From a virus, in IMG/VR virus record IMGVR_UViG_3300025168_000642, positions 1 to 24,423 of that record: a stretch of 24,423 nucleotides of DNA, one strand, 5' to 3'. Below are positions 1 through 24,423 of the stretch, piece after piece. The number at the start of each line of letters is the position of its first letter. The first letter of the stretch is position 1. The position numbers were made by a program, and so were the translations under genes. A model generated the notes under the pieces. The model saw nothing but the letters and a program-made list of their open reading frames with translations. It ran no database searches and had not been told where the DNA came from.

Positions 1-1
1 T

Positions 2-1624
2 ATAGCTGCTGCCGCTCCTGACGTCGACGACGCTGTTATTCCTGGGATAGCGGATAACCCGCCCCTTCTAAATCTGGAACCTACCGCCAAGACTGTTCAG
101 TACTTGGGCGCAGCTGCGGTTGCCTACCAAGAGGAAGTTGCCAGACAGATTGATGAGAGTGAGGTGGAGGAGGAGAAAGAGATGGAGGAAGGTAACATTG
201 CATCACCTGAGAACAATGCCCCTGAAGAGGAGATTACTTTAGACGAAGACTCCGAATGGAATACACAGGTGTCCGAGATGTCCAACGCGTACATTTCCAT
301 GGGAGACTCTGCGGAATCCCCCCACATTAGCATGTTTTTGGAAAAAATAATTAACAACCTAAACAGAGTTATTATTGGCAGGGACTCGAAGTTGATGGTC
401 CAACCTATTCAAGTTAACAGTTTATCCCCTGAGGACAGGCAAACCCTGTCAAAAACTTCTATAGCTCTGAAAGGGTATGATTGGAAAGACGACTGGGTGA
501 AAAATGATTCTGTAATGTTAATTATAGGTACCGAATCGGACATAACTGCACAATATGGCGACCCTCTAATTCGCCCTATCCTTTCCTTTCCCCAAGTCCT
601 TCAAGAGAAGATAGAAGAAGGGGGAGCTTCTTTTAATCTTGACCCTGATGTAGAACAAGAATACACAAATCAAATGATGTGGTTAGATTATGGTACGCCT
701 GATTCCCTTATAGCTAAACTAGATTTTACTGGAGATATTCGTGTATTGGTTAATTTAGCGCAAAGTAATTTTGCTGCCCGTCAATGGAACGATGTTAAAA
801 AATTATTTGATGGGACTGAGACCCTGTCTAAAGACATGATAACCAATGTTATTTCCCGGGGGCTGGCAATTAAAATTGCTGCATTGAATGCCAAGGTAGC
901 AAGTCAGGGTTCCGACCAAACTGAGTCTCAATTAGCCGAGCAACAGGAACTCACGCGACTTAACAACTTAGCTAAGACAAGCGCAGAATCTTCTGACGCT
1001 CTTATAAACCAAGAGTTGTTAAGTATCTTCCCGTCCATGGTCGCTTCCTTTGATACGGATGAGGCTTTGGCTAAGGTCGTAGGCAGAAAATCCGAAAGGC
1101 AAATGAAAGTTTTAGCTAGTTTAGTAGGAAATCCTAAGACGTTAAATATGCTCTTCCCAGAAGCGGAGATAGAAGGAAGAACTAACAAGATGAGGTCCCA
1201 AGCCATCATCGTAGGTCCTGATAAGGTTGAAAAGATGGATGTGATATCCCCTATTCTACAGAGGAAAGTGGATTTTGACCAGATTCACGCCAGAATCAGC
1301 GTCTTAGACACGCAAAACAAACTATCTGACGTAAGTTTTAACTTCGTAGCGGCTATGCAGCAAGAATCATTTACGTTAAAACTAACTACTTTGGGAATGC
1401 CTGAAATAGATAACCCAGCACAAGAATTTCTTAGTAGGTATATCTTTTTGAGATTTTATGACCCACGTCTAGCTAATGGTTCTTTACACTGGTTAAGCGG
1501 AGTTTATAAAATGACTGGGTTTAAACACGTCATTAATCCAAGCCAAGGATTCTTAACTGAGTTGAGCATTCTAAGACTGGCAAACAGTGAGGGAGATATA
1601 CAAACCGCGAGGGATACAAGATAA
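2..1624 (+). CDS. Baseplate/tail hub-like structural protein, 5'-truncated by window edge
   Basis: The frame is open from base 2 with no stop, so the gene begins before the window; a TTG at 104 is not needed as a start. About 540 residues are visible. The first ~110 are acidic and Pro/Glu/Asp rich, probably a flexible linker. The middle is helix-rich. The last ~90 residues (motifs FYDPR, LHWLSGVYK, TGFKHVIN, FLTELSILRL) have the look of the closing beta-barrel of phage hub proteins (gp27/gpD class), in which a ligand-like strand pattern ends in a T-x-L-x-x-x-R strand. It lies directly before the spike gene, as hub genes do in many contractile-tail phages, and its stop overlaps the next start (TAATG). 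In the virion it would form the ring that links tail tube and spike. The hub assignment is inferred from pattern and position; another baseplate role is possible. Confidence 0.65.
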   Translation: MAAAAPDVDDAVIPGIADNPPLLNLEPTAKTVQYLGAAAVAYQEEVARQIDESEVEEEKEMEEGNIASPENNAPEEEITLDEDSEWNTQVSEMSNAYISMGDSAESPHISMFLEKIINNLNRVIIGRDSKLMVQPIQVNSLSPEDRQTLSKTSIALKGYDWKDDWVKNDSVMLIIGTESDITAQYGDPLIRPILSFPQVLQEKIEEGGASFNLDPDVEQEYTNQMMWLDYGTPDSLIAKLDFTGDIRVLVNLAQSNFAARQWNDVKKLFDGTETLSKDMITNVISRGLAIKIAALNAKVASQGSDQTESQLAEQQELTRLNNLAKTSAESSDALINQELLSIFPSMVASFDTDEALAKVVGRKSERQMKVLASLVGNPKTLNMLFPEAEIEGRTNKMRSQAIIVGPDKVEKMDVISPILQRKVDFDQIHARISVLDTQNKLSDVSFNFVAAMQQESFTLKLTTLGMPEIDNPAQEFLSRYIFLRFYDPRLANGSLHWLSGVYKMTGFKHVINPSQGFLTELSILRLANSEGDIQTARDTR

Positions 1625-2748
1625 TGCCAATACAAGACGAAATTTCAGCAGCAGGCGGGGTAGCCGAATACGCGCGCCAACTCTTAACCAAAATGCAACT
1701 TTATGGGGAGGAAACACCTGTCCAAGAAGAAGCTTCTTCAGAGTCGGCTCCCATACCCTCAACGGGACTTGCCTTTGGGATAGTTACTCAGTGTTTGGAC
1801 GGCGACCACGCTGGAAGAATAAAAGTATCCTCTAAGAAATTTGGAGACCTGCCCCAAACCTGTGATTATGTATCCCCTATCGCGGGCGCAGGTTATGGGT
1901 TATTTGCGGTTCCTGGGATAGGCTCCATCGTCTTAGTTGGTGAGAATCCTTACTCCGATGCTTATGCTAAGTATTTTTGGCTTGGGTGTTTGTATGCCCC
2001 TGGGCAACGGGAAATACCTGGCGCCAAATCACAGCCTTACATACTCGGAAAAGGGCATGAAGCACAATTAACAAAAACAGAAGTCGATGATACGGGCAAT
2101 CCTCTCCCCAATGACCCTACTGTATCTTTTGGTGTTCCCAACGAGGCTAGTGTTTATCAGGATAACAACCTCCCCGATTCGTTCGTTTTAAAACACCCTG
2201 CGGGACACAGTATATCCTTAACTGATAAAAGCTCCTCGGAACGTAAGACAGATGAAATAAAAATAAAATCAGCGCAAAATAAGAGGCTAATTTTAAGTGA
2301 TGCTCCCGCCGAAGGCTCCGGAGGAGAGCGAATTACTTTGAGTGACGAGAACGGTAATTCTATATGTATCGCAACCGAAGGCGATGGTACTTTACAGCCG
2401 GACTCCATTAACACTTTTGCGAACGGTGATATCTACGTAGACACCGCTACAGGAAACATCGACAATACTATCAGCACTAAAAGCGAAGGAAATTATAGTA
2501 TAACAAATGCAGGTAAAGGTAATATTGATATTGCAGCTGATAATGGGCATGTTACAATAGACGCTAAAGCAGGAATCACTCTAACATGTGGCTCCTGTAG
2601 TATTAAGATGACCCCTAACTCTATTAATATCACTGGTCCTACCGGAGATGTGGTTATCGAACAAACTTCACTCAACAAACATACTCACCAGTACGTAGCT
2701 CCAGTGCACCCCGCCGGTTCTGTGCCTACTACACCACCAATCCCATAA
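1624..2748 (+). CDS. Central baseplate spike protein (gp5/gpV/VgrG-like), no lysozyme domain
   Basis: This 374-residue protein should be the trimeric needle at the tail tip that breaches the cell envelope. After a short helical lead (1-45) comes a gp5/VgrG-type OB fold at about 48-130 (FGIVTQCLDGDHAGRIKV, then a YGLFAVPGIGSIVLV strand pair and YFWLGC). Residues ~195-350 are short alternating strands rich in Gly, Asn, Asp, Ser and Ile, as expected of a triple-stranded beta-helix. The tip carries His-Thr-His at 353-355 and a further His at 362, before a Pro-rich tail ending TTPPIP. In P2 gpV and phi92 gp138 such an HxH motif binds an iron ion at the apex. T4 gp5 has a lysozyme domain after the OB fold; none is visible here. 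The ATG overlaps the stop of the hub-like gene. Family assignment is firm; metal binding is inferred. Confidence 0.9.
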   Translation: MPIQDEISAAGGVAEYARQLLTKMQLYGEETPVQEEASSESAPIPSTGLAFGIVTQCLDGDHAGRIKVSSKKFGDLPQTCDYVSPIAGAGYGLFAVPGIGSIVLVGENPYSDAYAKYFWLGCLYAPGQREIPGAKSQPYILGKGHEAQLTKTEVDDTGNPLPNDPTVSFGVPNEASVYQDNNLPDSFVLKHPAGHSISLTDKSSSERKTDEIKIKSAQNKRLILSDAPAEGSGGERITLSDENGNSICIATEGDGTLQPDSINTFANGDIYVDTATGNIDNTISTKSEGNYSITNAGKGNIDIAADNGHVTIDAKAGITLTCGSCSIKMTPNSINITGPTGDVVIEQTSLNKHTHQYVAPVHPAGSVPTTPPIP

Positions 2749-2750
2749 TC

Positions 2751-3902
2751 ATGATTACAGTCGTAGAACAAGAAATATATGGAAGCTCTCTTTGCTTTTG
2801 GGGGAACACCAGAGATGTCCCTGACAGGTATGCAGGAGGAGCTGCATTTGGGACTCTCTTAGGACAGACGTACGAGTTAGACACAGTCTCTGGCAGCCAA
2901 ATGGTTTACAGGAATAGACAACCTCAATCCAATGGCGCGTTTCCGCCCACACCGAAAATTATCAACAAAATAAGTATTGAACCGCTGTGGACTTATAGTA
3001 ATTTAAATCCTAGTGCTGTTACTCTTCCAGGTGCCCCAGCAAACCCTTACTTTGCGTTTTTCGCTGATGTAAAAATACAACCTTATATCGCCACACAACC
3101 TCTTAACAATTTAACTCAAAATTTCTTTGCTTTTTCTGCAACAAATGATGTTGAGTGGGAGCTGAATCAGTGGAGTCCGAGCGCTGGTCTTGAAAAAGTT
3201 AACGACATACATTTTGATGACAAGTTTGTATTACAGCCGTGGGAAGATTTAAAGGTAAGGTTGCTGGACGCTCAACTATCTGGGACACTACAAACGTTTG
3301 CCACAGGCAACGTCACTGTATCCAACGCACGACTTAGGCAGTGGGTTTACAACTGGGCTGAGTCAACCCAACCTGTTGCCAAGATTCGCATTGAGATGGA
3401 AGAGTTCGTCGCATCCTCCCAATACTTTCACAGGACCAGTCTTAATGATGTAAATATTAAGGGCACGGGGCTCTTCAGCGACACACCCGAGGAGTGGCAA
3501 GAGGTAACTCTTTTAGATTTTCGAAGCACTTCGCTAACGCTTAACGAAGCTCCATTTAACACCTCATCGTTCACGTCCTTCCAGTTAGATAACTTAGATT
3601 TCAGAGGAGCGTACCCATGGGGCGGAACGAGCACATCTCGTTTCATGTATTCAATTATGTTGCATACTGAAGGAAACCCTCCTGCCACCAGACACATTAG
3701 AAAATATGTTAGGTTTGCTGGCGGAGCAGTATCCGACTTAGAAATCAATGGACTTTTACAGGATATAGGTCCTATACAAATAGAGAAGGGACAGTGGTTG
3801 ACAGCGAGATTGTATGATATCGCATCGGCTATACCAACAACTACCGAAGCTTACTCAGCTAGACAAATGCCTGCATTTTGGCTAAATGGAACAGTAACCT
3901 AA
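2751..3902 (+). CDS. Unrecognised virion structural protein (383 aa)
   Basis: I do not recognise this family. The protein has no signal peptide, no membrane segment and no catalytic motif. It is rich in aromatic residues, Thr, Ser and Asn, with many short predicted strands, so an all-beta fold is likely. Two halves are suggested: about 1-190, ending at a strand-rich PWEDLKVRLLDAQLSGT stretch, and 200-383, which contains QWVYNWAE, YPWGGTSTSRFMYSIMLH and a closing QMPAFWLNG. It sits between the spike gene and the lectin-like gene, two bases after the spike stop, inside the baseplate operon; a baseplate or tail-tip accessory role is inferred from that alone. The ATG at 2751 is the first in frame after the upstream stop, but there is no Shine-Dalgarno-like sequence in front of it. 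Confidence 0.85.
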   Translation: MITVVEQEIYGSSLCFWGNTRDVPDRYAGGAAFGTLLGQTYELDTVSGSQMVYRNRQPQSNGAFPPTPKIINKISIEPLWTYSNLNPSAVTLPGAPANPYFAFFADVKIQPYIATQPLNNLTQNFFAFSATNDVEWELNQWSPSAGLEKVNDIHFDDKFVLQPWEDLKVRLLDAQLSGTLQTFATGNVTVSNARLRQWVYNWAESTQPVAKIRIEMEEFVASSQYFHRTSLNDVNIKGTGLFSDTPEEWQEVTLLDFRSTSLTLNEAPFNTSSFTSFQLDNLDFRGAYPWGGTSTSRFMYSIMLHTEGNPPATRHIRKYVRFAGGAVSDLEINGLLQDIGPIQIEKGQWLTARLYDIASAIPTTTEAYSARQMPAFWLNGTVT

Positions 3903-3914
3903 ATACAATAGACG
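3903..3914 (+). other. Largest intergenic gap (12 bases)
   Basis: An AT-rich spacer between the unrecognised 383-residue gene and the lectin-like gene. It has no hairpin, no T-run and no clear Shine-Dalgarno sequence. It is too short to contain a promoter by itself. No stretch over 300 bases in the window lacks a gene. Confidence 0.6.
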
Positions 3915-7106: not shown

Positions 7107-7108
7107 CA

Positions 7109-7519
7109 ATGCCTAACTTCGATTTAAATTATATAAAAACAAACGCTAAGAAGAGAATCTTAGGCGTCGCATTCCCTATGATGAATGAAGGGATTGGCGG
7201 TTACGTAGCTCAGAATGAAAACCTTAAATCCCTAAAAGATTGTGTTATACAATTAATTATGACAGGTAGAGGAGCCCGGGTGATGAGACCTGACTATGGG
7301 ACCGACTTACGTGCCTCTGTATTTGAGCAGATGACTGGGGATATGATTGACGCCTTAAAGCAGCAAATCTTACAAACGATTTCGAAGTATGAGCCTCGGG
7401 TTATCGTTAAGCGTATAGCTCTTACACCCAATTTTGAAAGACATACCCTAAAGGTAGAACTTTATATCACATCAAAAGATGATTTACTAAACGGAGAACT
7501 GGTGGAGGTTCTCGTATAA
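7109..7519 (+). CDS. gp25: Baseplate wedge / sheath initiator, gp25-like (GPW_gp25 family)
   Basis: At 136 residues this is close to the size of T4 gp25 (132) and of TssE-like proteins. Hallmarks are visible: the GRGARVMRPDYGTDLRASVF stretch at about 53-72 matches the R-x-M-x-P-D-[FY]-G-x-x-L signature, and Glu-Pro-Arg at 95-97 is the conserved EPR motif of the family, followed by paired strands (VIVKRIALTP, then HTLKVELYIT). In contractile tails gp25 joins the inner baseplate wedge and nucleates the first ring of sheath subunits. Its place directly before the gp6/J gene is the order seen across myoviruses. The start lies two bases after the previous stop with no Shine-Dalgarno sequence, so coupled translation is likely. 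Assignment is secure. Confidence 0.95.
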   Translation: MPNFDLNYIKTNAKKRILGVAFPMMNEGIGGYVAQNENLKSLKDCVIQLIMTGRGARVMRPDYGTDLRASVFEQMTGDMIDALKQQILQTISKYEPRVIVKRIALTPNFERHTLKVELYITSKDDLLNGELVEVLV

Positions 7520-7521
7520 CT

Positions 7522-9150
7522 ATGCCAACCAACGCCGACTACTCTCGTTATTTTCAAGGTCTGTATAATATCTCAGGCTTCGATGGGACCATTGAGTCCG
7601 ACTTCTTAAAATTAGGACAAGTTCCTGACGATAGAAAATCTGACCTAATTGATTACAACGTCAATGGGTTTGACCAGTATCGAACTGCCTTACAGAATTA
7701 CCTGAAATCCGTATACCCACTAGACTATAACAACTTTGCAGCCTCCGACTTAGGTCAGATGTTAGTTGAGATGTTTGCTTACATGTCCTCTGTTTTAGCC
7801 TTACGCGCAGATATGACCGCCAATGAAATGTATATTGATACGGTAAAGAATGAGGATAACCTAAAAAGGCTTCTCGAGCTTATTGGCGTAAGGATGAAAG
7901 GTCCTACCGCATCTAAGGCTACAGGGTTATTAGTTATTCCGGACGATATAACAATCGACGCGAATGGGGTTGTGATTAACAGAAACGACCGTAGCGTTCA
8001 GGTAGCCAACCAGAGAAGCAATGTCGCTTTGTCGTACACTGTGACTAAGCAGCTAAATGACGGAACCTTAGATTTATTCTCACAAGATTTGACCTTAAAT
8101 GCTGCTGCTTTTAATGGTCAATCCGCGAGTGGTTTATTTCTAGTAGAAGGAGAGTTCAATACTGCTGACGGTACGTTTAGAGGAGGCGCTAAGACGCGTC
8201 AAACTTTTGAAATTACCAATGGTCCTGTTATTGAAGGAAGTATCGGCGTCTCTTCAACGGAAAACAACGGTACACTATACAATGAAATTAGTAATTTATT
8301 TTTAGCTTCTGGAGGTACGCAAACCGTATTTGAGAAAACCTATACCGGAGGGTACGGCTGTATCCTTACCTTTGGTGATGGGGTAAGAGGTAGTTTACCA
8401 ACCCCGGGCGCTAATTTTACAGTAACTTACCGGACAGGAGGAGGAGGTAACGGAAATATCGCCCAAGGAACATTAAACACAACTGTTAAATGTTTTAACG
8501 GGGGAGTCAGCCCAGTAGACGCAACTCTAACTAATACAACTAAGGGTTCGGGAGGTACTCCAGCCGAATCTGTAGCTCACGCTAAACGATACGCCCCGTA
8601 TTTCTTCCGGACTCAGTACCGAGCGGTTACGGGGGAGGACTATAATGTCCTTGCCAATTCTTTTGTGGGTACCGGAGGAACTACAGCTAAAGCTATGGCT
8701 TCTTTGAGAACCAATGGAGCAGCAGCTAACGTAATTGATTTATTTGTCCTATCAAAAGCATCATCCACCCAGCTAGAACGCGCTTCGGTTGCCATGAAAA
8801 AAGAATTACTAGATTACTTCCAGAACTACAAAATGTTGACGGACGACATCGTTATTTCAGATGGGGTAGTACGCACCTTGGATATAGTAGCAACGCTTTA
8901 TATTGATAAATCGAATAAGAGATTCATTGATTCTATTCAACAAAAAGCAGCCGACAAACTTCTAGCATTCTTTGATGTGGATAATCTTGCATTTGGGCAG
9001 AAGATAAGTCTAGCGGAGGTAAATAATTTTATGCTTACAGTCCCAGAAATTAGGTTCTTTAAGATAGACAACCTCCCTGACGACTTATACGTAAACTTTA
9101 ATGAGATTGTTCAACTGAACAACTTTGAATTTAATACGGAGCTTGTGTAA
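7522..9150 (+). CDS. gp6: Baseplate wedge protein, gp6/J-like (Baseplate_J family)
   Basis: This 542-residue protein is a wedge subunit that, in T4 and P2, dimerises to form the inner ring around the hub. The N-terminal helical part (about 60-130) has the family pattern: SDLGQMLVEMFAYMSSVLAL, then a helix with NEMYIDTVKNEDNLKRLLEL and IGVRMKG. A beta-rich middle (130-345) includes LTFGDGVRGSLP, a G-D-G-x-x-G loop common in J proteins. The conserved FFRTQYRAVTGEDYNVLA motif at about 361-378 (R-A-V-T-x-x-D-Y) is diagnostic. The remainder alternates strands and helices, with a DIVATLYID strand and a final NFEFNTELV. T4 gp6 is 660 residues and P2 gpJ 302, so the length is in range. A GGAGG occurs upstream at an unusually long spacing of 13 bases. 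Confidence 0.95.
   Translation: MPTNADYSRYFQGLYNISGFDGTIESDFLKLGQVPDDRKSDLIDYNVNGFDQYRTALQNYLKSVYPLDYNNFAASDLGQMLVEMFAYMSSVLALRADMTANEMYIDTVKNEDNLKRLLELIGVRMKGPTASKATGLLVIPDDITIDANGVVINRNDRSVQVANQRSNVALSYTVTKQLNDGTLDLFSQDLTLNAAAFNGQSASGLFLVEGEFNTADGTFRGGAKTRQTFEITNGPVIEGSIGVSSTENNGTLYNEISNLFLASGGTQTVFEKTYTGGYGCILTFGDGVRGSLPTPGANFTVTYRTGGGGNGNIAQGTLNTTVKCFNGGVSPVDATLTNTTKGSGGTPAESVAHAKRYAPYFFRTQYRAVTGEDYNVLANSFVGTGGTTAKAMASLRTNGAAANVIDLFVLSKASSTQLERASVAMKKELLDYFQNYKMLTDDIVISDGVVRTLDIVATLYIDKSNKRFIDSIQQKAADKLLAFFDVDNLAFGQKISLAEVNNFMLTVPEIRFFKIDNLPDDLYVNFNEIVQLNNFEFNTELV
9138..9141 (+). promoter_or_regulatory. Shine-Dalgarno-like GGAG before the gpI-like gene
   Basis: GGAG lies 11 bases before the ATG at 9153 and 17 before the alternative ATG at 9159. 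The spacing favours the first ATG but is longer than the usual 5-9 bases. It lies inside the 3' end of the gp6/J gene, so coupling may matter more. Confidence 0.35.
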
Positions 9151-9152
9151 AC

Positions 9153-12100
9153 ATGACAATGTCAGATAAGGGTACGGGGCAAGAACACTTTAAGTCTAAT
9201 TACATTGAAGTAATTAAGCGTATTGTTCCTGAGTACTATGATGTCACCGAGTACAACTTATTTGGCTCTGAGGAGGATTTGCAATATAGAGTTTTAGGCT
9301 CCATTTTATATACCACTAATAATGTGTCATCCCTGATTGGCGCACCAACAACTTACAATCTTCAAGCGTCCTCATTTAGCGGAAATGAATCATACGTCCC
9401 ATACTGTGTCCCCTTTAATAATCTGACTGATGTAAGCCCCACCACCTATGAGAATTACGTTCTGAGACCTCTAGGAAAAACGTTCGGCAGCTTCAGAAAC
9501 AAAGACGAATTCTCCGAATTTCTTTTAGCTTCCGCTTTGCCCCACACAGAATTTAATAATGTTAGTGATTTTTTCTGCAGCAGCTTTAGTTCTACGGTTG
9601 ACCCTAATGTAACCACTACCTCGGGGGTAGCTAATACGCTCATTGATAAGCTAGGGTGGGTATACTTTCAAAACACTTCAGGAACAATAGTCGATACCAA
9701 TTCAGTGGGGGTAAGCTCATTTTTATACAGTTCCATAATGGATAATCTTTATTATGGGAAGAGAGTACAGACTTCCGATGGGGTTCGAAACTTGTTTAAG
9801 TGGATGTACACTAACGCTAAAGGTGGTGCGGCTGAGTGGTCTGAGATAAGAACTAAGTTCTTACCTGTCCCTTTCAATAGCCCTTCTTCCACATTTGCTC
9901 CGGCTATAGGAGAGGAAGGCAACTTCTACGCATCCGGAGGACAGCTTGTAAGCGCGTTAGACACGCTTGTAAACGTATGGGTAAATGAAGACGACCCAAA
10001 CTCTTTGTACTTCAGAGACATCGTTAACGCGTCTCTGCTGGGGTTTGACGTTACTCGAATGGAGAACGCCGGTCCTATGGGTAAGATGCTCAAAGCTCTC
10101 GCCTACGGATTCTATGACGTTCAAACTTCCATCAGGGATATCCAATACTTGTTGGACATTGAGCGCTGTCCCGAAGAATTTCTACAATACTTAGGGAGGT
10201 ACTTAGGCTGGACATTTTTCTCGGATGACCCGGATAAATGGCGTGACCAGTTAAGACAAGCTATTTACCTTTATAAAGCCAAAGGCACTAGACAGGCTTT
10301 AGCAAATGCGGTCAATATGGTTATACCTTCCTCTGTGTATAACCCAGTGGCTCCTGTATCTGGTCTCCAAGAGTTATGGGAATCCTATGTCCCAAACCTT
10401 CTTTATTACACTCTGAAAACAGAGACCCCCCTGGGGAAAGACAACCAGAAGTATTTAGCCTTTAAGTCTCAATGGACGAGGTCCTTACAGGCATCCGGCA
10501 TACCTCTAGGTAACATTAATTACGACTCACAAAACAAAGATAATAATGTTCGCTTCGCCGTGGACGCAATCTTGGAGTTGTTAAATTACCAGTATGGTTA
10601 CTTAGACATTGGAGGAATTCCTTACAAGGAAACCGCATACTGGAAACAACAGCAAGCAGCGGGGCGGGCGCCTGGCTACAGCTATCGCGGAGCTATGCTA
10701 AATATTCCTCCATGGGAAGAAAGTAGATTCTATCAAAATTGCGGAATTGGTCCTAATATGGATGACTTCATACGCAGTGTTTCCTCCGTGCTATCCAGAA
10801 CGTACGACCAAATAGGCTGTGGAGTTTCTTCCACTGCTGCCAATACTGTAGCAAAATATATTTTAAGTTCTGTTTCTATTAAAGACGCGAACGGTATATT
10901 TGAGCCTGGATGGGGAGCTAACAACTCGTTCAAGTTTATGACCTCATCTTTAGAACTTCCATTCAATTACCATACTGTAATTAAAGAAGGAGACTTAGAT
11001 AGTATGAGCGTGTTCGATTTCTGGAACTCCAAATCATCAGAAGTACACTCAAAGTTTTATGCGTCCGCTATCGATTTCTCTTCAAATGACTTCACAAATT
11101 TAGCAATCACAAAAATAGGACGTAAGGGTATTCCGACCATTGTCGACGTGTTTCGTCAATTCGCACCCTTCCATACCTTAAACAAAATATTCGTAGGCTC
11201 GGCAATAACAGACGACTACTACGGAACAAGACATGGGATTGATACTGCATGGTCTGGGACCATGGACTTAGAGGTAGTTAATACTATCCAGTCCGATATG
11301 GACCAACTTTACAGTACCTACACCGTCTCCGCCTTCCCCGGACTTCGCCGAGGAGGACGAAGTGGTCCAGGCTCATTTAGCGGGGTGGGCGTGTTCCCTA
11401 GTGTATGGGACCCACAGAACGGAAGATACCTTCCCTCGGCGACATTACACGGGACTAGAGGAACTGGTGCTCAAGGATATTTCTGGAGTGGTGGTGTCTC
11501 GGGAACGCAAAGGGGTCCAATTGACCCAGCCCCCCAAGGAAATAAAGCAGTCATTGCAAGTAGAACTGCAGGCAGACGTAAAGATTTAAAATATAAATTT
11601 ACCGGCTGGTCACAAAATAGGCAAGGACTTAACCAACCCATCAGCACTGACTGGTTTGGTATGAGTGGGGGAGGCGTACAACCCGTACTAAAGGCAAGAG
11701 GTCTTAAGCTACCAGGCTTTGTGCCGAAAGGATTTAACTTCTCTTCCCAAAACTTCGTTGATACTAGTGGAAGTCTGTCGTCTGTGTACTCTTATTACAA
11801 CACCTCGGCTACTCCGTTCTTTGAGTTTTACACCTCTTCCTTCTTTCCAGCACGGGCTATCCCTGACTTTGAAGGCAATGCATCTAGCTTTAATCAATTA
11901 AGAGATGTTTTTGGTTCTCAAATTCTGCGAGCCATGACCAACATCTTCGTCAGGCGAGGAAAAAAGGATTCACGATGGAACCGATTTACAGACCAAGGAT
12001 TCGAAAACTTTAAATTCGGTACAGGAGTACAGAAACTTTACTGGGATTACAACAATACATTCCGAAGACAACTTCAGTGTTGGGTAGACCAAGAGACGCA

Positions 12101-14030
12101 GGTAGATGGGGATAGATATGCCGGGGGTTTCAATATACTGGCTCATGTTTTTGGTCCTTTACTTTTCAACCATAATTTTTCTATAAAAGGTAATATCCAA
12201 AATAATCTTGGAGTTAAGTCTTACCCAAACTCGTTTGCCGGAGCAATTTCTTCTATTAGCCCAGATTGGAGCGGAGTAGTAGCCACCCCTGCAGTAAATC
12301 AAAATAATGTTTATATTAACACCCGGGGAAAGAATACTACTCTTACCGACGGAATTCTAGGTGCAGGAGCTTTTGGGTCGTACGTAAACACATTAGATAC
12401 TTTCGAAAATCCAACACAAACTTACTACGCAAATAAAACTATGCTTTCCGGTATAGAGTTTGTGGCTCCTCAAGTTAACTCATTCGCTGTTTGGAATAAC
12501 CCGTCTAACCCATCTTATAATATTGATTTAATTTCCGCGAGCGGAATTACTTTTGTGCAACGCCATGGAGGAGAGAACCCCTTAAGAACCGTCCGCGCGC
12601 GATTTGCGTTGAATGGTAATATGAATTACTCTTATAACGGAAAATTAAAGTATCCTCCAAGAGATATTGCCCGTGAAAGTAAATCCCTCTCCGCAATCGC
12701 TGGGTGGCAGTTGCAAGAAGCAACCCGGACCCCTAACATTAATTCCGCAGGACACAGGACCAACACCTTCAGCCCACAATGCCACTTGGTCAATACAGCA
12801 GGAAGTGCAATACCCTACGTTCAAATGCAAGGAGTAGGTGGTTACTCAGGTACTGGCGTCCTAGGAGTTATGTCTGGTGTGCTAGGAACATCGCACACCC
12901 CCATGCTCGCAACGGTTGTGAATGTAACGGACCGCCAAACCCCCGCTAACCTAAGACCCTTCACCCCAGCAGATTCCTATCAAATTTCTTTTGAGGCTTC
13001 GGGGAGCCCTGCAGCTGGCAACTCTAGAATATGTTATGCAGTGTTTAATCAGACAGCTGAAAAGCAATGGGTCGAGCCTACAGGTCAGTGGCGTGACATG
13101 GAGACAACATACTCTTCCAACTTAGTAAACGTGATGACAAGTAGTGTGGGTAGTGACCCCGATTGGAACCTTTATACAGGAATCATAACACCATCATCCA
13201 CCTTCCTCCAAAATGATAATTACCAATTAATTATTGCTCCTGGAAGAAAAACCAAGACGGTTTCAACTAGGTTCCGTGTTCGGAATATTAAAGTGGAAAA
13301 CCGTGAACAAGGTATTACAAAGATTACTGCTGGTAGACAAGGAAATAAATTATTCAAAGATGAACAATATTTGTTAGGAATCAGCGCCAGAGTTGCAAGA
13401 ATTTCCGCCGCAGCATCTCAACCCGACGAAAACTTGTACGTTAGAATTGTGACAGACCCGAAACCTTTTGTAGGGAATGGGTGGAATACATTTGCTAAAA
13501 ATTGGTGCTACGATTGGAAAGCCAAAGCGTGGTCGCAGGCTACCACTACCTCATATGATAGGCAGTGGAAACAACTCCCACTCGCGGGCAGCTCAATAGA
13601 GCCTACCCGACATGTCTTAGAGTTTAATACTCTTAACAGTAGGACTCCCCTTAAATACAATTCTCTTTCCAAAGACGGTCCCTTGGGAGGGTACTTCGCG
13701 TCCGCAGGACCCGTTCATGATGACCAAACTGTTTATTATGTGGAAATAGGGAAACCTGACAGAACCGGCGAATTTAATGGAGTAACATTATTAGGCATAG
13801 ATATTGTAAATAAACTCTATAATATTTATGCAGAAGATTATTCTAAAAAGGATTTTGTAGATATGTTTGATTTCTTTGATGATTTGAACATAAGTAAATC
13901 TTCCCGGGATTCCCGAAACTCGTCCAGCACCTACCTATTATCAGGAGGAAGCCGAAGTGAGTACCTAGAATACTGGGGAGGCAGCCACTCCGCTACAAAC
14001 GGAGTTTATGGATTTAGAGAAAATGATTAA
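9153..14030 (+). CDS. Giant baseplate wedge protein: tail-protein-I (gpI-like) core with long beta-rich extensions
   Basis: At 1625 residues this is far longer than P2 gpI (about 176). The recognisable core is at roughly 300-395: MGKMLKALAYGFYDVQTSIR, then an ERCPEEFLQYLGRYLGW segment, then WRDQLRQAIYLYKAKGTRQA, the typical gpI pattern ending in K-G-T and a helix. The N-terminal 300 residues lack a known signature. About 730-870 is a Gly/Arg/Ser-rich stretch likely to be flexible. The C-terminal ~370 residues hold at least two beta-sandwich modules with a Y-(x)n-W signature (Trp1306 and Trp1460) like those in the next gene. It follows gp25 and gp6/J, the normal wedge gene order. The ATG at 9153 has GGAG at 9138-9141; a second ATG lies six bases further on. 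It may do the job of both gpI and the larger wedge arm T4 gp7; that is inference. Confidence 0.87.
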   Translation: MTMSDKGTGQEHFKSNYIEVIKRIVPEYYDVTEYNLFGSEEDLQYRVLGSILYTTNNVSSLIGAPTTYNLQASSFSGNESYVPYCVPFNNLTDVSPTTYENYVLRPLGKTFGSFRNKDEFSEFLLASALPHTEFNNVSDFFCSSFSSTVDPNVTTTSGVANTLIDKLGWVYFQNTSGTIVDTNSVGVSSFLYSSIMDNLYYGKRVQTSDGVRNLFKWMYTNAKGGAAEWSEIRTKFLPVPFNSPSSTFAPAIGEEGNFYASGGQLVSALDTLVNVWVNEDDPNSLYFRDIVNASLLGFDVTRMENAGPMGKMLKALAYGFYDVQTSIRDIQYLLDIERCPEEFLQYLGRYLGWTFFSDDPDKWRDQLRQAIYLYKAKGTRQALANAVNMVIPSSVYNPVAPVSGLQELWESYVPNLLYYTLKTETPLGKDNQKYLAFKSQWTRSLQASGIPLGNINYDSQNKDNNVRFAVDAILELLNYQYGYLDIGGIPYKETAYWKQQQAAGRAPGYSYRGAMLNIPPWEESRFYQNCGIGPNMDDFIRSVSSVLSRTYDQIGCGVSSTAANTVAKYILSSVSIKDANGIFEPGWGANNSFKFMTSSLELPFNYHTVIKEGDLDSMSVFDFWNSKSSEVHSKFYASAIDFSSNDFTNLAITKIGRKGIPTIVDVFRQFAPFHTLNKIFVGSAITDDYYGTRHGIDTAWSGTMDLEVVNTIQSDMDQLYSTYTVSAFPGLRRGGRSGPGSFSGVGVFPSVWDPQNGRYLPSATLHGTRGTGAQGYFWSGGVSGTQRGPIDPAPQGNKAVIASRTAGRRKDLKYKFTGWSQNRQGLNQPISTDWFGMSGGGVQPVLKARGLKLPGFVPKGFNFSSQNFVDTSGSLSSVYSYYNTSATPFFEFYTSSFFPARAIPDFEGNASSFNQLRDVFGSQILRAMTNIFVRRGKKDSRWNRFTDQGFENFKFGTGVQKLYWDYNNTFRRQLQCWVDQETQVDGDRYAGGFNILAHVFGPLLFNHNFSIKGNIQNNLGVKSYPNSFAGAISSISPDWSGVVATPAVNQNNVYINTRGKNTTLTDGILGAGAFGSYVNTLDTFENPTQTYYANKTMLSGIEFVAPQVNSFAVWNNPSNPSYNIDLISASGITFVQRHGGENPLRTVRARFALNGNMNYSYNGKLKYPPRDIARESKSLSAIAGWQLQEATRTPNINSAGHRTNTFSPQCHLVNTAGSAIPYVQMQGVGGYSGTGVLGVMSGVLGTSHTPMLATVVNVTDRQTPANLRPFTPADSYQISFEASGSPAAGNSRICYAVFNQTAEKQWVEPTGQWRDMETTYSSNLVNVMTSSVGSDPDWNLYTGIITPSSTFLQNDNYQLIIAPGRKTKTVSTRFRVRNIKVENREQGITKITAGRQGNKLFKDEQYLLGISARVARISAAASQPDENLYVRIVTDPKPFVGNGWNTFAKNWCYDWKAKAWSQATTTSYDRQWKQLPLAGSSIEPTRHVLEFNTLNSRTPLKYNSLSKDGPLGGYFASAGPVHDDQTVYYVEIGKPDRTGEFNGVTLLGIDIVNKLYNIYAEDYSKKDFVDMFDFFDDLNISKSSRDSRNSSSTYLLSGGSRSEYLEYWGGSHSATNGVYGFREND

Positions 14031-18528: not shown

Positions 18529-18529
18529 A

Positions 18530-19126
18530 ATGCAATTTCTCGAAAAATCAGAACCCCATGGACACTTAGAAGTCTGGAAACATTACCCAGATGGAAAAAA
18601 GGAACTCCACTTCAAAGATGATAATGTTATCTGTAGTGGTATGGGAGCTACGTTAGCGGAGATGTTCGACGCAGAACCAACTGTAGACGTAGAGAATTTT
18701 CAATGCGTGTACTTTCGCTGTGGCTCTGGAGGACAAACGTCCTACCAAGTTTCCAGTCGGTCGGATGTAGAAGAACCCTTTAGTCGTGCACAATACGGTA
18801 CGGGAAACTTGAATATGAGTATACATAATTTGATTGCGAATGGAGCTAAAAGTGCCTCTACTACCGCTTTCGGTGTCATCCCATACGGCTACATTAAACG
18901 TATTACCCCCACAAAATGTATGTGGCAAATCGTATTGGACGAACAGACGTTGAATGTGGGAGATAATGACCCTGATGAAGGGTATATTAATGAGATTGGT
19001 TTGTTTAGTAAAAACCCTTATGTGGAAAGCACCGACGCTTCCATGTTGTGCGCGTACAGGTACTTTAAAAAGATTTATAAGACCGACGCATTTATTTTAG
19101 TCTTTAGATGGACGATTGAATTCTAA
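18530..19126 (+). CDS. Small fibre/adapter-type structural protein sharing both end domains with the preceding giant protein
   Basis: This 198-residue protein starts with GHLEVWKHY and a D-N-V-I-x-x-G-M-x-x-T-L-A-E-M segment at 31-45, which lines up with residues 28-43 of the upstream 1506-residue protein. A following V-x-x-[FY]-Q-x6-G-S pattern (54-66) also aligns with residues 62-74 there. The C-terminal part (about 150-198) has INEIGLFSKNP, then AYRYFKKIYKTDAFILVFRW, a pattern I associate with the closing domain of many phage tail and fibre proteins. No catalytic residues, signal peptide or membrane segment are visible. It starts one base after the previous stop and its own stop overlaps the next start. 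A role as adapter or connector between baseplate and fibre is plausible from size, place and shared ends, but is inference. Confidence 0.8.
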   Translation: MQFLEKSEPHGHLEVWKHYPDGKKELHFKDDNVICSGMGATLAEMFDAEPTVDVENFQCVYFRCGSGGQTSYQVSSRSDVEEPFSRAQYGTGNLNMSIHNLIANGAKSASTTAFGVIPYGYIKRITPTKCMWQIVLDEQTLNVGDNDPDEGYINEIGLFSKNPYVESTDASMLCAYRYFKKIYKTDAFILVFRWTIEF

Positions 19127-22100
19127 TGGTAAGTTTCAAAAATGTAAGCAGTGTAGGCGGCGATGGAACCATCCCCCTCAATTGGACTGATTCAGTCCCT
19201 AAGTATGACCCTAGTTCTTTTTATAACTGGGAGCAGGATAATGTTCCTTTATGGTCTATCGAACAAAGAGGTGATACTCTTTACCGCGCTATGGGGTATC
19301 CAGGAGGTAACCCCCAGGGCGTCACCTTTACCCTTTCGTCTGAAGGTAATTATGATGAAAGCAAAGCTATTTATGATTCCATTGAGGATATCGTTGAAAG
19401 AATCCCTAAAAGGCTTAAGTTTCCAGTTCTAATTGAGATATGTAAGTATGGACCTTTAGGACATTTGGACCTCGCGAATATTACTTGCGAAGGAGAAGGA
19501 AAGCTAGAAGTTAAAAATAAAGCTTTCTTCTCAGACGTCAACGCCTCGGCTCAAGCTGTTGCGGCTGTGTCGGGAAGCCCTGCGGATTCTGCTTTAGGAA
19601 ATCGGGATTATGTAAAGACAGCCTACTCGGTGAACGCATCTGCTACGATGATGAATGTATCATCTACAAGACTAGAGAGGTCGTTTGCGAGCGACACCGC
19701 TTGGTATACCAACGGACGACTGTTTACTATGCAGGGTCCGGATACCGACCGCCAAGCTAATAATATCAGTGTCTACGTACCGTCCGCATCAACCTCTTGG
19801 ATTGGTACGGTTGGCGGAAAGGGTAACGGTTACTTTAGTATCCCCCAGGTATATAACTGGCAAAATGATTATGGCGCTGGAGCGGATACTCTGACAACTG
19901 GCGCAGGCGCAGCAGCTAGTGGGTGGGGAGATGCAACGCCGTGGTACGGCTCTTCAACAGGTCAATATATGGTTACAAAACGAGCCATGCAGTACACTAA
20001 AGGACAAAACACCTTAGTCGGATATGGCGCATACTTTAGCTCCATCTCTCTAAAGGATTGTCAAGGAACCATTATTCTCAGAGACCTTCTGATAGACGCC
20101 GGAAACAACCAAAACGACGAAAGTGGAAATCAAATTCACAGAGGAACGTATGGGTTGGATATAGAAAATTCCGAAGTAATCCTGGATAATATTACTTCTA
20201 TGAGAAATTCGTTGGGGGGTTTTAAAGCCACCAATTCTCGAGTTAAAATTACTGGTCACTGCATGGGTTACCGTAACTATACGAAAACTGGTAAAGCAAA
20301 CACTGATAGATTACAGAATGGAGTAGGCTTCTACTCACTAAACAGTGATTTGGAATGGGACTCAACAGATTACCCGGACGCTAGAAAATACATTAATTTG
20401 TTTACAAAGTCTAAGCGGGGTATGGATTTAAGAAATACCACCGTACGCGGGGGCATCGCTTGGAACGAAACCACCACATCTGCTATCCCCAATGGAGGTT
20501 CCCAACTCCTGGGTCAACCACGCACGGTAAACGGCACATCTTACGTCACAACGTCAGGAGCTGGCGGTGACACCTTAACAACCTTAGTTAATATTTCCGA
20601 CTGCAATGAACACGGTTTATACAGTGAGGGAAGTGATATTGAGTTCAACGGACGTTTTAACTCCTTCCTTAATGTTGGAGACGGAATACATTTAGCAAGG
20701 TCTCAGGCTGCCCTACCTCAATTCACCTGTAATAACAATACTGGATGGGGTCTAAGTTTGGAAGGCTCTCAACTAACCTACGCAGGAGGAAGTGAAAACT
20801 TCCCGGTACGTGCTGACGGCTACTCACAAGTTACCGCAGGTGGACGTATTCTTGACGGCTCTATTCCAACAAATGACTTTGGCATTAAGGCTCCTATCTT
20901 CTCAGTAGCAGCAAAGACTAGACGTATTAGAAATCGTGCACAATTCCACGTAGATTCTAACAACCAAAATTTGTTGGTCGACAAGTCTTCTTCAGTACAA
21001 GTCGCACAAATAAATAATATTCCTTTCTACGTAGGACAGTGGGGTGGGTGTAATTGGGTGAATTCCAATACCGCAGGCTCTCAATATGATTTAGGTCTCG
21101 CTGTTCGATATCTTCCAGCTACTCACTTCGGAGCAACTCCGTATAGAGCAAACAACCAGCCAGGAATGGTGGTTACCAATAACTCCGACGCAGAACTAGT
21201 TGGCGTAAGTTACGCTGTAGACTCACATGATACCGGAAAAGGAAAAGTTGCGATTGCTTCTAATGGGTCCAACCTCACCTTTAGAGGCACCTCCTCTACG
21301 TGTACTACTTTTAATTATTACCCTGTTAATGACGTCGCTTCTCAATTTAGAAGTTGGATGTCTGCAGGTGTGGTAGCGACTGATAATTCAAACGTTGAAC
21401 TAACTGGTCCAACTAAGTCCACTCGATTTGGAGTACCTTTCTTAGCAGAGAATAACTCTAATTTTAAAGTTAAGCCCCCTACTTTTGTAGGTACGGATGA
21501 TATCCTGGATATCTCCGGGTATCACCTTATCCCTTATGCTGGTGCCGGTATTTCACAACCTAACCACACAAGCCTTGAGGTTCACGCAACACGAGCCTGT
21601 CTGGTCGCAAATAAGAAATCTAGCATTGAACTGTTTGGTTTGGGTGGAAAGGTTCTTCAAGGCGCGACTGGAAACACTATAGACTCTGTAGACGTATTTG
21701 CTACAGCTTACGCTGATGATTATATCGGAGACCAAAACAACCAATGGGATAGGTCCACTTCAGCGGGCTACCTTAAGTTTTACCCTAACGCGTTTACTAG
21801 TGGTGTAGCAACCGACTTCGCTTCACGACTTTCGTTACAGCCCGGCGGCGTAAACGAGTCCTTCAACATCACCAACCCTTATGTCAGGACGCCCGACACA
21901 GGAGCAGCTGATTTTAACCACAGAAATGGTATGACGGGGGGTATGTGTGTACGCGCAGTTCAAGATAGTTCTGTGGATGTTAACCTTGTGAACTTCCATT
22001 TCCAGGGTTCCCCCTCTTCCGTATCGGGAGTTTACTATAACCTTAAAGGGACAGGATGCGGTAGGTTTATAGACACTGCCCCTTCCGTAGGTACAAATGA

Positions 22101-23388
22101 CACTGACCCTCCGTTCTTCACCGCGGTGGATACAGCAGCTTTAGAGACCGGGTCTTCGCCAGTAGACGGTATTGGCGAGCCTCCAGGAGGTGGAACCGGT
22201 TCAGCCGGAAACTCCGACTTTACTGACACTGTTGTCGTAGGGGGAGGCGGTGGTAATTACACTGGAGGAACTACAGACCAAACAGGTCAAGGTGACTTGG
22301 CTACTGTCGCTGGTAAAGGAACTATGAACTCAACCTTCGGCAACAACACAAAGAACGACCAAATAGGAAGTATGACTGTGATTGGAGATGAGCGAGCCCC
22401 TAAAGAACGCTTCCGCGCCTACATGAGAACTAAACAAGGTGCAACTATCAATGCTCCTACCGGAGGCTTAATGGCGGACCCTGATTGTATGGGTTCTCAA
22501 ATTCAGATTTGGAACTTAGCAGACACTTCACGTATCCATGCTTCCAATATCCTAGCTAATGGAATGGACCCAATGACATGGTCTTTAAGCGCAACAGCTC
22601 CTGGAGGAGGCGCTAACTGCCATGGTCCAATGGGTAAATGGAGAAATGGTGTTGCTTTAGACTACTATGGTTTAGGTGGTCGAAGAACTACTTACGGAGG
22701 CTGTGGAGCAGTTTATGCTAATACTGGAGTATTCCGTTTGATGATGTCCACTCGCGGTGACCTTAAATCGTTCTACGATGTAAGTACTTTGAGCGGGACA
22801 AGCACAGGTCCCCAAGGATGGCGAGAAACAGCAACGTCCGGAGGTTCGCCCGTCGACCAAGTTAACGGGCAAGGATATCCTCACTGGACACAAAATGTTC
22901 GTGTTCTTGGAGCTGCGGACAACATCCGACGCTTAACCGGAACTGACTCAGACTTCCCACAAGGAATTTACCAGCTTTCAAGCTGTTTAAGAGTGTTTGG
23001 TTGGGGAATGCCTTCGATGAACCCATCTGCTGGCGTTGCCACTATGCAGCCTAGATTAGGTGGGTTTAGTGCTTTCAATGCAGTTTCGGGTAGCGATGGA
23101 ACGGCATCCGCCGGATGGTATTACACAACCGCCGAACCCGTAACCCCATTACCTCCTTTAGGTATGGATTCTTTAGGATATATGAGAAACTGGTTGGATG
23201 AAAGCGCGGCTGGGATGTGGCAAAATGCCAAACATATGGCGGAGGATAAAGTTAACGGGGTATCTATTTATAGGTCCCACATGGGCGGTAAATCCGGAGG
23301 AGAGGGACGAGACCACGATGCTGAGAACTGTTCCTTCGGAGTTGGAGTAAGGTCGCTCAACATATTTGACCTGGAGAGATTAGTATAA
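19126..23388 (+). CDS. Large beta-helix fibre-like virion protein (1420 aa)
   Basis: The N-terminal segment 32-61 contains FYNWEQDNVPLWSIEQRGD and ends MGYPGG, and is likely the part anchored to the particle. Around 75-130, SIEDIVERIPKRLKFPVLIE and ICKYGPLGHLDL form a compact domain. From about 290 to 950 the sequence is a run of short strands broken by Asn/Gly/Ser turns, with at least twelve copies of a degenerate [NGKD]-S-x-[VLI]-x-[LFV] unit, consistent with a right-handed beta-helix of the pectate-lyase/tailspike kind. A Gly/Thr/Asn-rich linker (about 1014-1080) separates a C-terminal region (1085-1420) rich in Gly, Trp and Met that I cannot assign. No catalytic signature for depolymerase activity is recognisable. 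Its likely job is host attachment. Start and stop both sit in TAATG overlaps. Confidence 0.83.
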   Translation: MVSFKNVSSVGGDGTIPLNWTDSVPKYDPSSFYNWEQDNVPLWSIEQRGDTLYRAMGYPGGNPQGVTFTLSSEGNYDESKAIYDSIEDIVERIPKRLKFPVLIEICKYGPLGHLDLANITCEGEGKLEVKNKAFFSDVNASAQAVAAVSGSPADSALGNRDYVKTAYSVNASATMMNVSSTRLERSFASDTAWYTNGRLFTMQGPDTDRQANNISVYVPSASTSWIGTVGGKGNGYFSIPQVYNWQNDYGAGADTLTTGAGAAASGWGDATPWYGSSTGQYMVTKRAMQYTKGQNTLVGYGAYFSSISLKDCQGTIILRDLLIDAGNNQNDESGNQIHRGTYGLDIENSEVILDNITSMRNSLGGFKATNSRVKITGHCMGYRNYTKTGKANTDRLQNGVGFYSLNSDLEWDSTDYPDARKYINLFTKSKRGMDLRNTTVRGGIAWNETTTSAIPNGGSQLLGQPRTVNGTSYVTTSGAGGDTLTTLVNISDCNEHGLYSEGSDIEFNGRFNSFLNVGDGIHLARSQAALPQFTCNNNTGWGLSLEGSQLTYAGGSENFPVRADGYSQVTAGGRILDGSIPTNDFGIKAPIFSVAAKTRRIRNRAQFHVDSNNQNLLVDKSSSVQVAQINNIPFYVGQWGGCNWVNSNTAGSQYDLGLAVRYLPATHFGATPYRANNQPGMVVTNNSDAELVGVSYAVDSHDTGKGKVAIASNGSNLTFRGTSSTCTTFNYYPVNDVASQFRSWMSAGVVATDNSNVELTGPTKSTRFGVPFLAENNSNFKVKPPTFVGTDDILDISGYHLIPYAGAGISQPNHTSLEVHATRACLVANKKSSIELFGLGGKVLQGATGNTIDSVDVFATAYADDYIGDQNNQWDRSTSAGYLKFYPNAFTSGVATDFASRLSLQPGGVNESFNITNPYVRTPDTGAADFNHRNGMTGGMCVRAVQDSSVDVNLVNFHFQGSPSSVSGVYYNLKGTGCGRFIDTAPSVGTNDTDPPFFTAVDTAALETGSSPVDGIGEPPGGGTGSAGNSDFTDTVVVGGGGGNYTGGTTDQTGQGDLATVAGKGTMNSTFGNNTKNDQIGSMTVIGDERAPKERFRAYMRTKQGATINAPTGGLMADPDCMGSQIQIWNLADTSRIHASNILANGMDPMTWSLSATAPGGGANCHGPMGKWRNGVALDYYGLGGRRTTYGGCGAVYANTGVFRLMMSTRGDLKSFYDVSTLSGTSTGPQGWRETATSGGSPVDQVNGQGYPHWTQNVRVLGAADNIRRLTGTDSDFPQGIYQLSSCLRVFGWGMPSMNPSAGVATMQPRLGGFSAFNAVSGSDGTASAGWYYTTAEPVTPLPPLGMDSLGYMRNWLDESAAGMWQNAKHMAEDKVNGVSIYRSHMGGKSGGEGRDHDAENCSFGVGVRSLNIFDLERLV
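20164..21987 (+). repeat. Degenerate N-S-x-V-x-L type protein repeat inside the beta-helix gene
   Basis: Units seen by eye, with first residue: ENSEVILDN (347), TNSRVKITG (369), LNSDLEWDS (405), EGSDIEFNG (501), EGSQLTYAG (546), NNSDAELVG (685), NGSNLTFRG (713), DNSNVELTG (753), NNSNFKVKP (776), KSSIELFG (831) and QDSSVDVNL (946), plus looser copies. Spacing ranges from about 22 to 95 residues, so these are rung-like structural repeats, not a tandem DNA repeat; the codons differ between copies. Confidence 0.7.
23373..23376 (+). promoter_or_regulatory. Shine-Dalgarno-like GGAG before the last gene
   Basis: GGAG lies 11 bases before the ATG at 23388, within the end of the beta-helix gene. Because the start overlaps the upstream stop (TAATG), this site may assist re-initiation rather than independent loading. 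The spacing is longer than usual. Confidence 0.3.
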
Positions 23389-24423
23389 TGACACAAAGAA
23401 TTAATGAAGATATTAGGTTCTACTTACCAGCAGACCCGTACTACTACCAAGTAGATAACCTTCCTTTAGAGGATTTGTTATCTAACGACGTAAGACTGCA
23501 ATCTCAGATTGACGAGATTAATTCATCGGAAAGGGGAAACACTGTAGGTAGAGCTGGTTTCACCGAACTGCAACCTTTTGTAGATGCTGGACTACCAGGA
23601 ACTATATCCGTCAGACCGGGTAACTTCATCGGGCGAGTAGAGAGGACTAATGGTGGTGGGCTTTACGGCAACAACGGAGAAGTTCACAGAATAGATAATG
23701 GTCTTTGGGATTTTAACAACCCCCCAACTACATTCGGAACCGGGGAGAATCCAACAGGAACCTATAGTGTAAACAATCCCCCTAATACACCAGCAAACGC
23801 AGCTAATGGTGTGGCAAGAACTGCAGTCTTCAATTTTCCAGGCGGAAACATTTCTCTTGACTCGTTTGGTTTCACAGATTTCCAAGGACCAGATGGCGGG
23901 GTTACAGCACCTCTAGGACGTCTGGACCTTATTGGTATCACTACTGTGAATGGAGCTATGGACGACCCATACCTCCCAGGAACTGAACTCCCCGGAGTCG
24001 AGACAGGTGACGGACAACCTAAACTGGCAGTCGTAAAAGGGGCTGGAATGGTAACATCTGACAACGGAAGACGACAGGTAGTGATTGGCGAAAGGTACGT
24101 CACTATTGGATTGCCTCAGGAGTCCGCCAATGATTACGGAAGAAATCTAGACGGTGATGTTGTCCCTAATCCAACATGGCTAACGACGCCTGCTCCTGAC
24201 GATGCAATAAATATTAACTACGCTAGGGATATAATGGAAAATGGGGAAATTTCCCAGAGGCTATGGGACTGGGCGTACTCAAATAAGAACGCAAGCTTCT
24301 TTCTACCAATAGCTTATGTATATGTTCCTCAAAGCCACGTGGAAGGAAACCCAATCCCTCAACAGTACTTAAAGGATATTAGACCTTTCTTTAGAACAGC
24401 AGAACTATCCAATGCTGAAAGAG
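23388..24423 (+). CDS. Virion structural protein with N-terminal D-N-L-P-L motif, 3'-truncated by window edge
   Basis: The frame opens at an ATG overlapping the previous stop (TAATG) and stays open to the last base, giving 345 visible codons; the gene continues beyond the window. Residues 16-41 (DPYYYQVDNLPLEDLLSNDV) match the N-terminal segment of the preceding beta-helix protein (Y-x-x-x-x-D-N-x-P-L), suggesting a shared mode of attachment to the particle. Residues 50-75 (GRAGFTELQPFVDAGLPG) and 75-150 are Gly/Asn/Pro-rich with short strands. A later segment, SQRLWDWAYSNKNASFFLPI followed by AYVYVPQSH, near 300-325 is more helical and then beta. I associate such proteins with large marine or cyanobacterial myoviruses but cannot confirm this here. 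Function is unknown beyond a probable virion role. Confidence 0.8.
   Translation, partial: MTQRINEDIRFYLPADPYYYQVDNLPLEDLLSNDVRLQSQIDEINSSERGNTVGRAGFTELQPFVDAGLPGTISVRPGNFIGRVERTNGGGLYGNNGEVHRIDNGLWDFNNPPTTFGTGENPTGTYSVNNPPNTPANAANGVARTAVFNFPGGNISLDSFGFTDFQGPDGGVTAPLGRLDLIGITTVNGAMDDPYLPGTELPGVETGDGQPKLAVVKGAGMVTSDNGRRQVVIGERYVTIGLPQESANDYGRNLDGDVVPNPTWLTTPAPDDAININYARDIMENGEISQRLWDWAYSNKNASFFLPIAYVYVPQSHVEGNPIPQQYLKDIRPFFRTAELSNAER

Follow-up and report, generated by a model that had tools for sequence, protein, structure and literature searches.

Loss of GATC and GGCC sites and scarcity of the Trp-Pro dipeptide in uncultivated T4-like myoviruses

Introduction

The loss of recognition sites under restriction has long been known and is usually regarded as a question of codon usage. 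Non-temperate dsDNA phages are recognised to counter orthodox Type II systems by eliminating the target sites (PMC6286503). The loss of GATC, the Sau3A site, from Staphylococcus phage K has been put down to Sau3A avoidance (PMC6532042), and the loss of GGNCC from Rosenblumvirus to Sau96I (PMC6346686). GGCC is also a known restriction-modification (R-M) motif, and in contigs of sea-ice bacteria both GATC and GGCC are within the three most prevalent such motifs (PMC12570018).

Several isolated phages lack one or both of these two words, as indicated by counts that were made, for the larger genomes, in samples of 50-100 kb. Phage K (GATC 0 against 135 expected, GGCC 0 against 16), Enterococcus phage EF24C (0 against 93 and 0 against 33) and Listeria phage A511 (0 against 171 and 1 against 57), all lytic Herelleviridae, are the ones that share both depletions with the contig described here; A511 was dropped as a non-avoiding control, given that it avoids both words. 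These three are, however, unrelated phages of Gram-positive hosts in which, unlike in the contig, GGNCC and Gly-Pro are missing as well. Two Bacillus phages, SPO1 and phi29, share the depletion of GGCC (2 against 123 expected and 0 against 21, respectively) but retain GATC (232 against 337 and 42 against 75) and differ further in lacking CGCG (0 against 34 in SPO1, L201 and L202; 0 against 26 in phi29, L203). The window analysed here, a stretch of 24,423 nt, is the entire 24.4 kb viral contig of its record and contains neither GATC nor GGCC.

Results

Both words are four-base palindromes, so that a string search of all 24,423 bases (positions 1-24423) covers both strands; it finds GATC zero times and GGCC zero times, and the complete absence of GGCC in the original prediction is exact. 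These are the only zero-count words among the 256 tetramers; after them, the strongest depletion is that of CTTG (0.49 of expectation), and no further 5-base word is missing against expectation. The 55-60 GGCC sites originally expected hold as a composition-only figure (57), whereas a Markov model gives 39 and the codon-preserving null, in which synonymous codons were shuffled 300 times inside each of the ten window genes, yields the lower value of 36.1 +/- 5.1 (minimum 23). Under the same null, 75.1 +/- 6.7 GATC are expected and no shuffle comes near zero, so the absence of both words stands. Both count as eliminated under a published criterion (observed/expected ratio, or compositional bias, below 0.1, with at least 15 sites expected; PMC6286503), with 0 of 62 GATC and 0 of 39 GGCC, or 0 of 75 and 0 of 36 by the codon null. 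Chance or base composition has a negligible probability as the cause in view of the Markov and codon-shuffle nulls and the repetition of the pattern over about 1 Mb of unique sequence from relatives. The similar words that had been said to be present do occur (CCGG 56, GCGC 47, CGCG 45, GGTCC 28 and GGACC 25 times), and a general avoidance of G/C-rich words is rejected. The 53 occurrences of GGWCC indicate that the avoided word is GGCC rather than GGNCC.

All ten genes of the window are on the plus strand (104-23388). Among their products are a baseplate hub-like protein with the phage/T6SS injector OB domain (1624-2748; PF04717), a T4 gp25-like baseplate wedge protein (7109-7519; PHROG 261/43, PF04965), a T4 gp6-like baseplate wedge protein (7522-9150; PHROG 219) and a member of a 1625-aa tail protein family (9153-14030) that was assigned from a weak match to the tail family PHROG 48 and from alignments. 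With gp6, which is also the basis of the tree of avoidance states, 67 related viral contigs were found, and more were added through the terminase and the DnaB-like helicase of relatives of 68 kb and 51 kb. The longer relatives encode a terminase, sheath, gp23-like capsid protein, ssDNA-binding protein, ribonucleotide reductase, family-A DNA polymerase, toprim primase and glutamine synthetase. This T4-like myovirus gene set, with gp25 and gp6 in the window and gp17, sheath, gp23 and gp32 in relatives, identifies the window as a fragment of an uncultivated T4-like myovirus. Judged by low identity to isolates alone, the group appears to resemble the uncultivated Far-T4 phages (PMC4360716). Homologs of gp6, gp25, gp17, sheath, gp23, gp32 and of the gp46/47 type are shared with the Far-T4 group and Kyanoviridae, whereas gp17 (terminase) and gp23 (capsid) are no more than about 36% identical to those of the listed isolates, most of which are cyanophages, and the family-A DNA polymerase sets the group of the window apart from the comparison phages. 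When gp6 and gp23 were used in two scans of bacterial genomes to look for a host, no match was obtained, and no tRNA genes that might hint at a host were found. In the phage group, the glutamine synthetase gene directly precedes the DNA polymerase gene (L072:4494-5474, L166:806-1819; PF00120). Related contigs (L208, L209, L212, L157, L166 and L169) carry a long run of sugar-nucleotide genes, apparently of the dTDP-rhamnose pathway, and of glycosyltransferase-like genes; these genes, named by eye from the sequence, are variable between contigs.

Across 128 related contigs, which are not independent inside the clade, GATC is close to bimodal, that is, near all-or-none. In 96 contigs totalling 1.28 Mb (about 1.0 Mb unique), only 2 GATC are found against 3,508 expected, both in the final 31 bases of one contig (L111:10004-10034), where an assembly artefact is possible. 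In 23 contigs GATC is near normal (923 against 1,138 expected), and the other 9 are intermediate; six of the latter (L164, L165, L166, L170, L190 and L197) share the spacing of their sites and thus apparently represent one species. GGCC is nearly absent among the related contigs, with 100 sites remaining of the 1,650 expected in the GGCC-depleted ones. On the gp6 tree, GATC changes state 4 times and GGCC 6 times, independently of each other, and GATC-normal lineages (L009-L015, L027 and L029) are nested among GATC-zero ones. The two states are uncoupled in L166, which has 33 of 69 expected GATC yet a single GGCC, located at a Trp-Pro, and in L045, with 0 of 21 expected GATC yet 15 of 24 GGCC. 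Avoidance of the two words has therefore been gained and lost independently in this clade, which rules out one joint pressure on both and bears out the two separate pressures proposed at the outset. Some GATC-normal distant relatives lack ACGT instead (G033, comprising L082 and L083, with 0 against 74 expected; L048-L053; L061), and in L048 and L050-L052 TTAA and AATT are also few.

Comparison of orthologous sites shows how completely the words were removed. Between L010 and the window, 0 of 27 GATC are kept, against 12 of 42 AGCT and 8 of 37 GTAC; between L166 and L162, 0 of 23 GATC against 20 of 40 CATG; and between G005 and G014, 1 of 11 GGCC against 77 of 127 AGCT. An erasure of sites by mutation, for example by deamination at methylated cytosines, would fit the finding that the transition products GGTC and GACC are somewhat more frequent than in the codon null (1.39 and 1.20, respectively), but an excess just as large is seen for other neighbouring words (GTCC 1.41, GGCT 1.37, GCTC 1.36), the replacements include transversions (GATA, GAGC, GGAC) and track the third positions of codons, and an exact zero beside near-normal close relatives is not expected from mutation, which makes this explanation very unlikely. 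The sites were lost by selection, largely via codon choice. Selection rather than mutation, as originally favoured, is upheld by these comparisons and by the residual GGCC sites at Trp-Pro.

Trp-Pro (TGG-CCN) is the sole dipeptide whose every codon pair creates GGCC, whereas GATC locks no dipeptide, and any GATC can be dissolved by a synonymous change. Just two of the four-base palindromes lock dipeptides in this way: GGCC (Trp-Pro) and TGCA (Met-His and Met-Gln). This difference accounts for the exact zero of GATC against the near-zero of GGCC. Of the 100 residual GGCC sites in GGCC-depleted contigs, 51 are at Trp-Pro and most of the other 49 are in lineages that apparently re-acquire sites (G004, G005, G016 and their kin, and L048). 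In the strict lineages the majority of leftover GGCC is TGG-CCN; a few single unlocked GGCC persist, against practically no GATC. A weaker pressure on GGCC as the main cause of the residual sites is thus largely superseded by the Trp-Pro lock. Several of the locked sites belong to conserved motifs, namely QWPNYDK in the ssDNA-binding protein (kept in 16 of 17 non-redundant sequences), FWPM in a large virion protein (11 of 14) and YWPWVK in the tail sheath (3 of 3), and here it is the function of the protein that keeps GGCC from reaching zero.

Beside the codon-level loss of GGCC, the phage proteins avoid Trp-Pro itself. The ten proteins of the window contain no Trp-Pro against 5.9 expected, compared with 7 Pro-Trp. 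In the clade, with redundancy removed, there are 20 Trp-Pro against 66.8 expected and 70 Pro-Trp, and in the strict lineages no dipeptide is more depleted than Trp-Pro (0.25). In the 1625-aa protein family, a Trp-Pro of GGCC-permissive relatives is replaced by Trp-Ser or Trp-Ala in GGCC-free members. The position is residue 819, where the window has Trp-Ser, encoded by TGGTCA (11607-11612, plus strand); Trp-Ala is present in 18 of the 25 sequences aligned, and Trp-Pro is found only in the GGCC-permissive G033 and L045. In non-avoiding phages Trp-Pro is itself at about 0.7 (0.71) of expectation, so part of the deficit in the clade may be background. Compared with that rate, the depletion in the clade is strong (Poisson probability 6e-6), with counts that are not fully independent within the clade, and the difference in the Trp-Pro to Pro-Trp ratio between the clade and the non-avoiders is modest (Fisher p 0.04).

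The same footprint recurs in isolates. Trp-Pro is absent in K, EF24C and A511 (0 against 17.3 expected), as in the window, and in SPO1 and phi29 (0 against 13); over these five GGCC-avoiding isolates together, 0 are found against 30.3 expected, with 27 Pro-Trp, and Trp-Pro ranks lowest of 399 dipeptides. Four non-avoiding isolates have 28 against 35.1 expected; LP65, a non-avoider that carries a Mom-like gene, has 1 against 3.5, too small a count for a test. An analogous effect is seen in the phages without GGNCC, K (L222), EF24C (L221), A511 (L206 and L207) and phi29 (L203), where Gly-Pro is reduced to 1 against 127.7 expected, with 48 Pro-Gly, as GGNCC locks Gly-Pro; the corresponding counts are 37 against 43.7 in T4 and 25 against 37.2 in the window. 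This dipeptide, or amino-acid, footprint is the new part of the analysis; the literature searched makes no mention of dipeptide effects of word avoidance, a search that is no proof of novelty.

Discussion

Taken together, it is highly probable that this lineage shed every GATC, and every GGCC that a synonymous change can remove, under two strong, independent pressures, most simply Type II restriction. Site loss known in K, in Rosenblumvirus and in non-temperate phages, combined with the prevalence of the two motifs, makes two host restriction specificities the best reading. Specificities for GATC (as in Sau3AI/MboI) and for GGCC (as in HaeIII/BsuRI) would be frequent among the hosts, and the phages would escape through loss of every GATC and every synonymously removable GGCC; GGCC would remain where a protein needs Trp-Pro, and GATC, having no lock, would go to exact zero. 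The original prediction was right in its main points. The host restriction it proposed is kept as the simplest account, given the parallel case of Sau3A and phage K (PMC6532042), and we infer the enzymes themselves from that analogy. Site loss rather than modification, also part of that prediction, is consistent with the finding of no Dam, C5 or N6/N4 methyltransferases (PF02086, PF00145, PF01555) in 35-49 related records, all of them fragments. The phage DNA is presumably unmodified, and the phage itself is probably lytic.

Some observations could also be accommodated by a phage-encoded, sequence-specific nuclease that cuts the host at GATC (or GGCC) and leaves the site-free phage genome safe. 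The absence of GATC is extremely strict, with no scattered single sites in the zero lineages, as if a site were lethal, and related lineages switch the zero word (to ACGT in G033 and L048-L053) as might follow a change of nuclease. However, nucleases of the DpnII or MutH/Sau3AI type were absent from 33 related records, all fragments; PDDEXK proteins occur in GATC-zero and GATC-normal lineages alike; Trp-Pro GGCC sites persist that would not be tolerable under a self-encoded GGCC nuclease; and two independent nucleases would be needed. Such a nuclease therefore appears quite improbable. A PADLOC search of ten proteins returned a Cas4-like nuclease and weak matches only.

Slightly more probable, though still unlikely, is a pressure from host methylation by orphan Dam-like or GGCC methyltransferases, in which the phages would escape DpnI-type cutting or regulatory or mismatch-repair effects rather than classical restriction. 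Phages of hosts with Type IIM enzymes avoid GATC in 45 of 46 cases (PMC6286503), and enzymes of the Dam type are widespread among marine bacteria (PMC12570018). The former study itself, however, holds such avoidance to be weak and mainly due to Type II enzymes, T4 and cyanophages tolerate GATC (63 against 174 and 268 against 312 expected, respectively), and GGCC is less simply explained. Cyanophage Syn19, one of the T4-like comparison phages, differs from the window in that it carries dam, keeps GATC and lacks CCGG. The absence of CCGG extends to the 595 kb uncultured phage LR756511 (L204, L068; 0 against 187 expected) and S-PM2 (L199; 0 against 21), beside Syn19 (L200; 0 against 40).

The dipeptide footprint and its Gly-Pro counterpart in isolates are the part worth following. 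Selection appears here to be strong enough to alter proteins, and the footprint carries its own means of telling selection from mutation and accounts for the exact zero of one word and the floor of the other. It is likely, if somewhat less so than the loss of the sites under two pressures, that restriction reshapes phage proteomes in that an avoided word bans its locked dipeptides (Trp-Pro for GGCC, Gly-Pro for GGNCC), with residual sites marking functions that outweigh restriction. Close relatives in this clade differ in the avoidance of GATC, GGCC and ACGT, and the clade could serve to date when restriction pressure arose and vanished in uncultivated hosts. If the proteome reading is true, a missing dipeptide could expose the restriction history of a phage from protein sequence alone.
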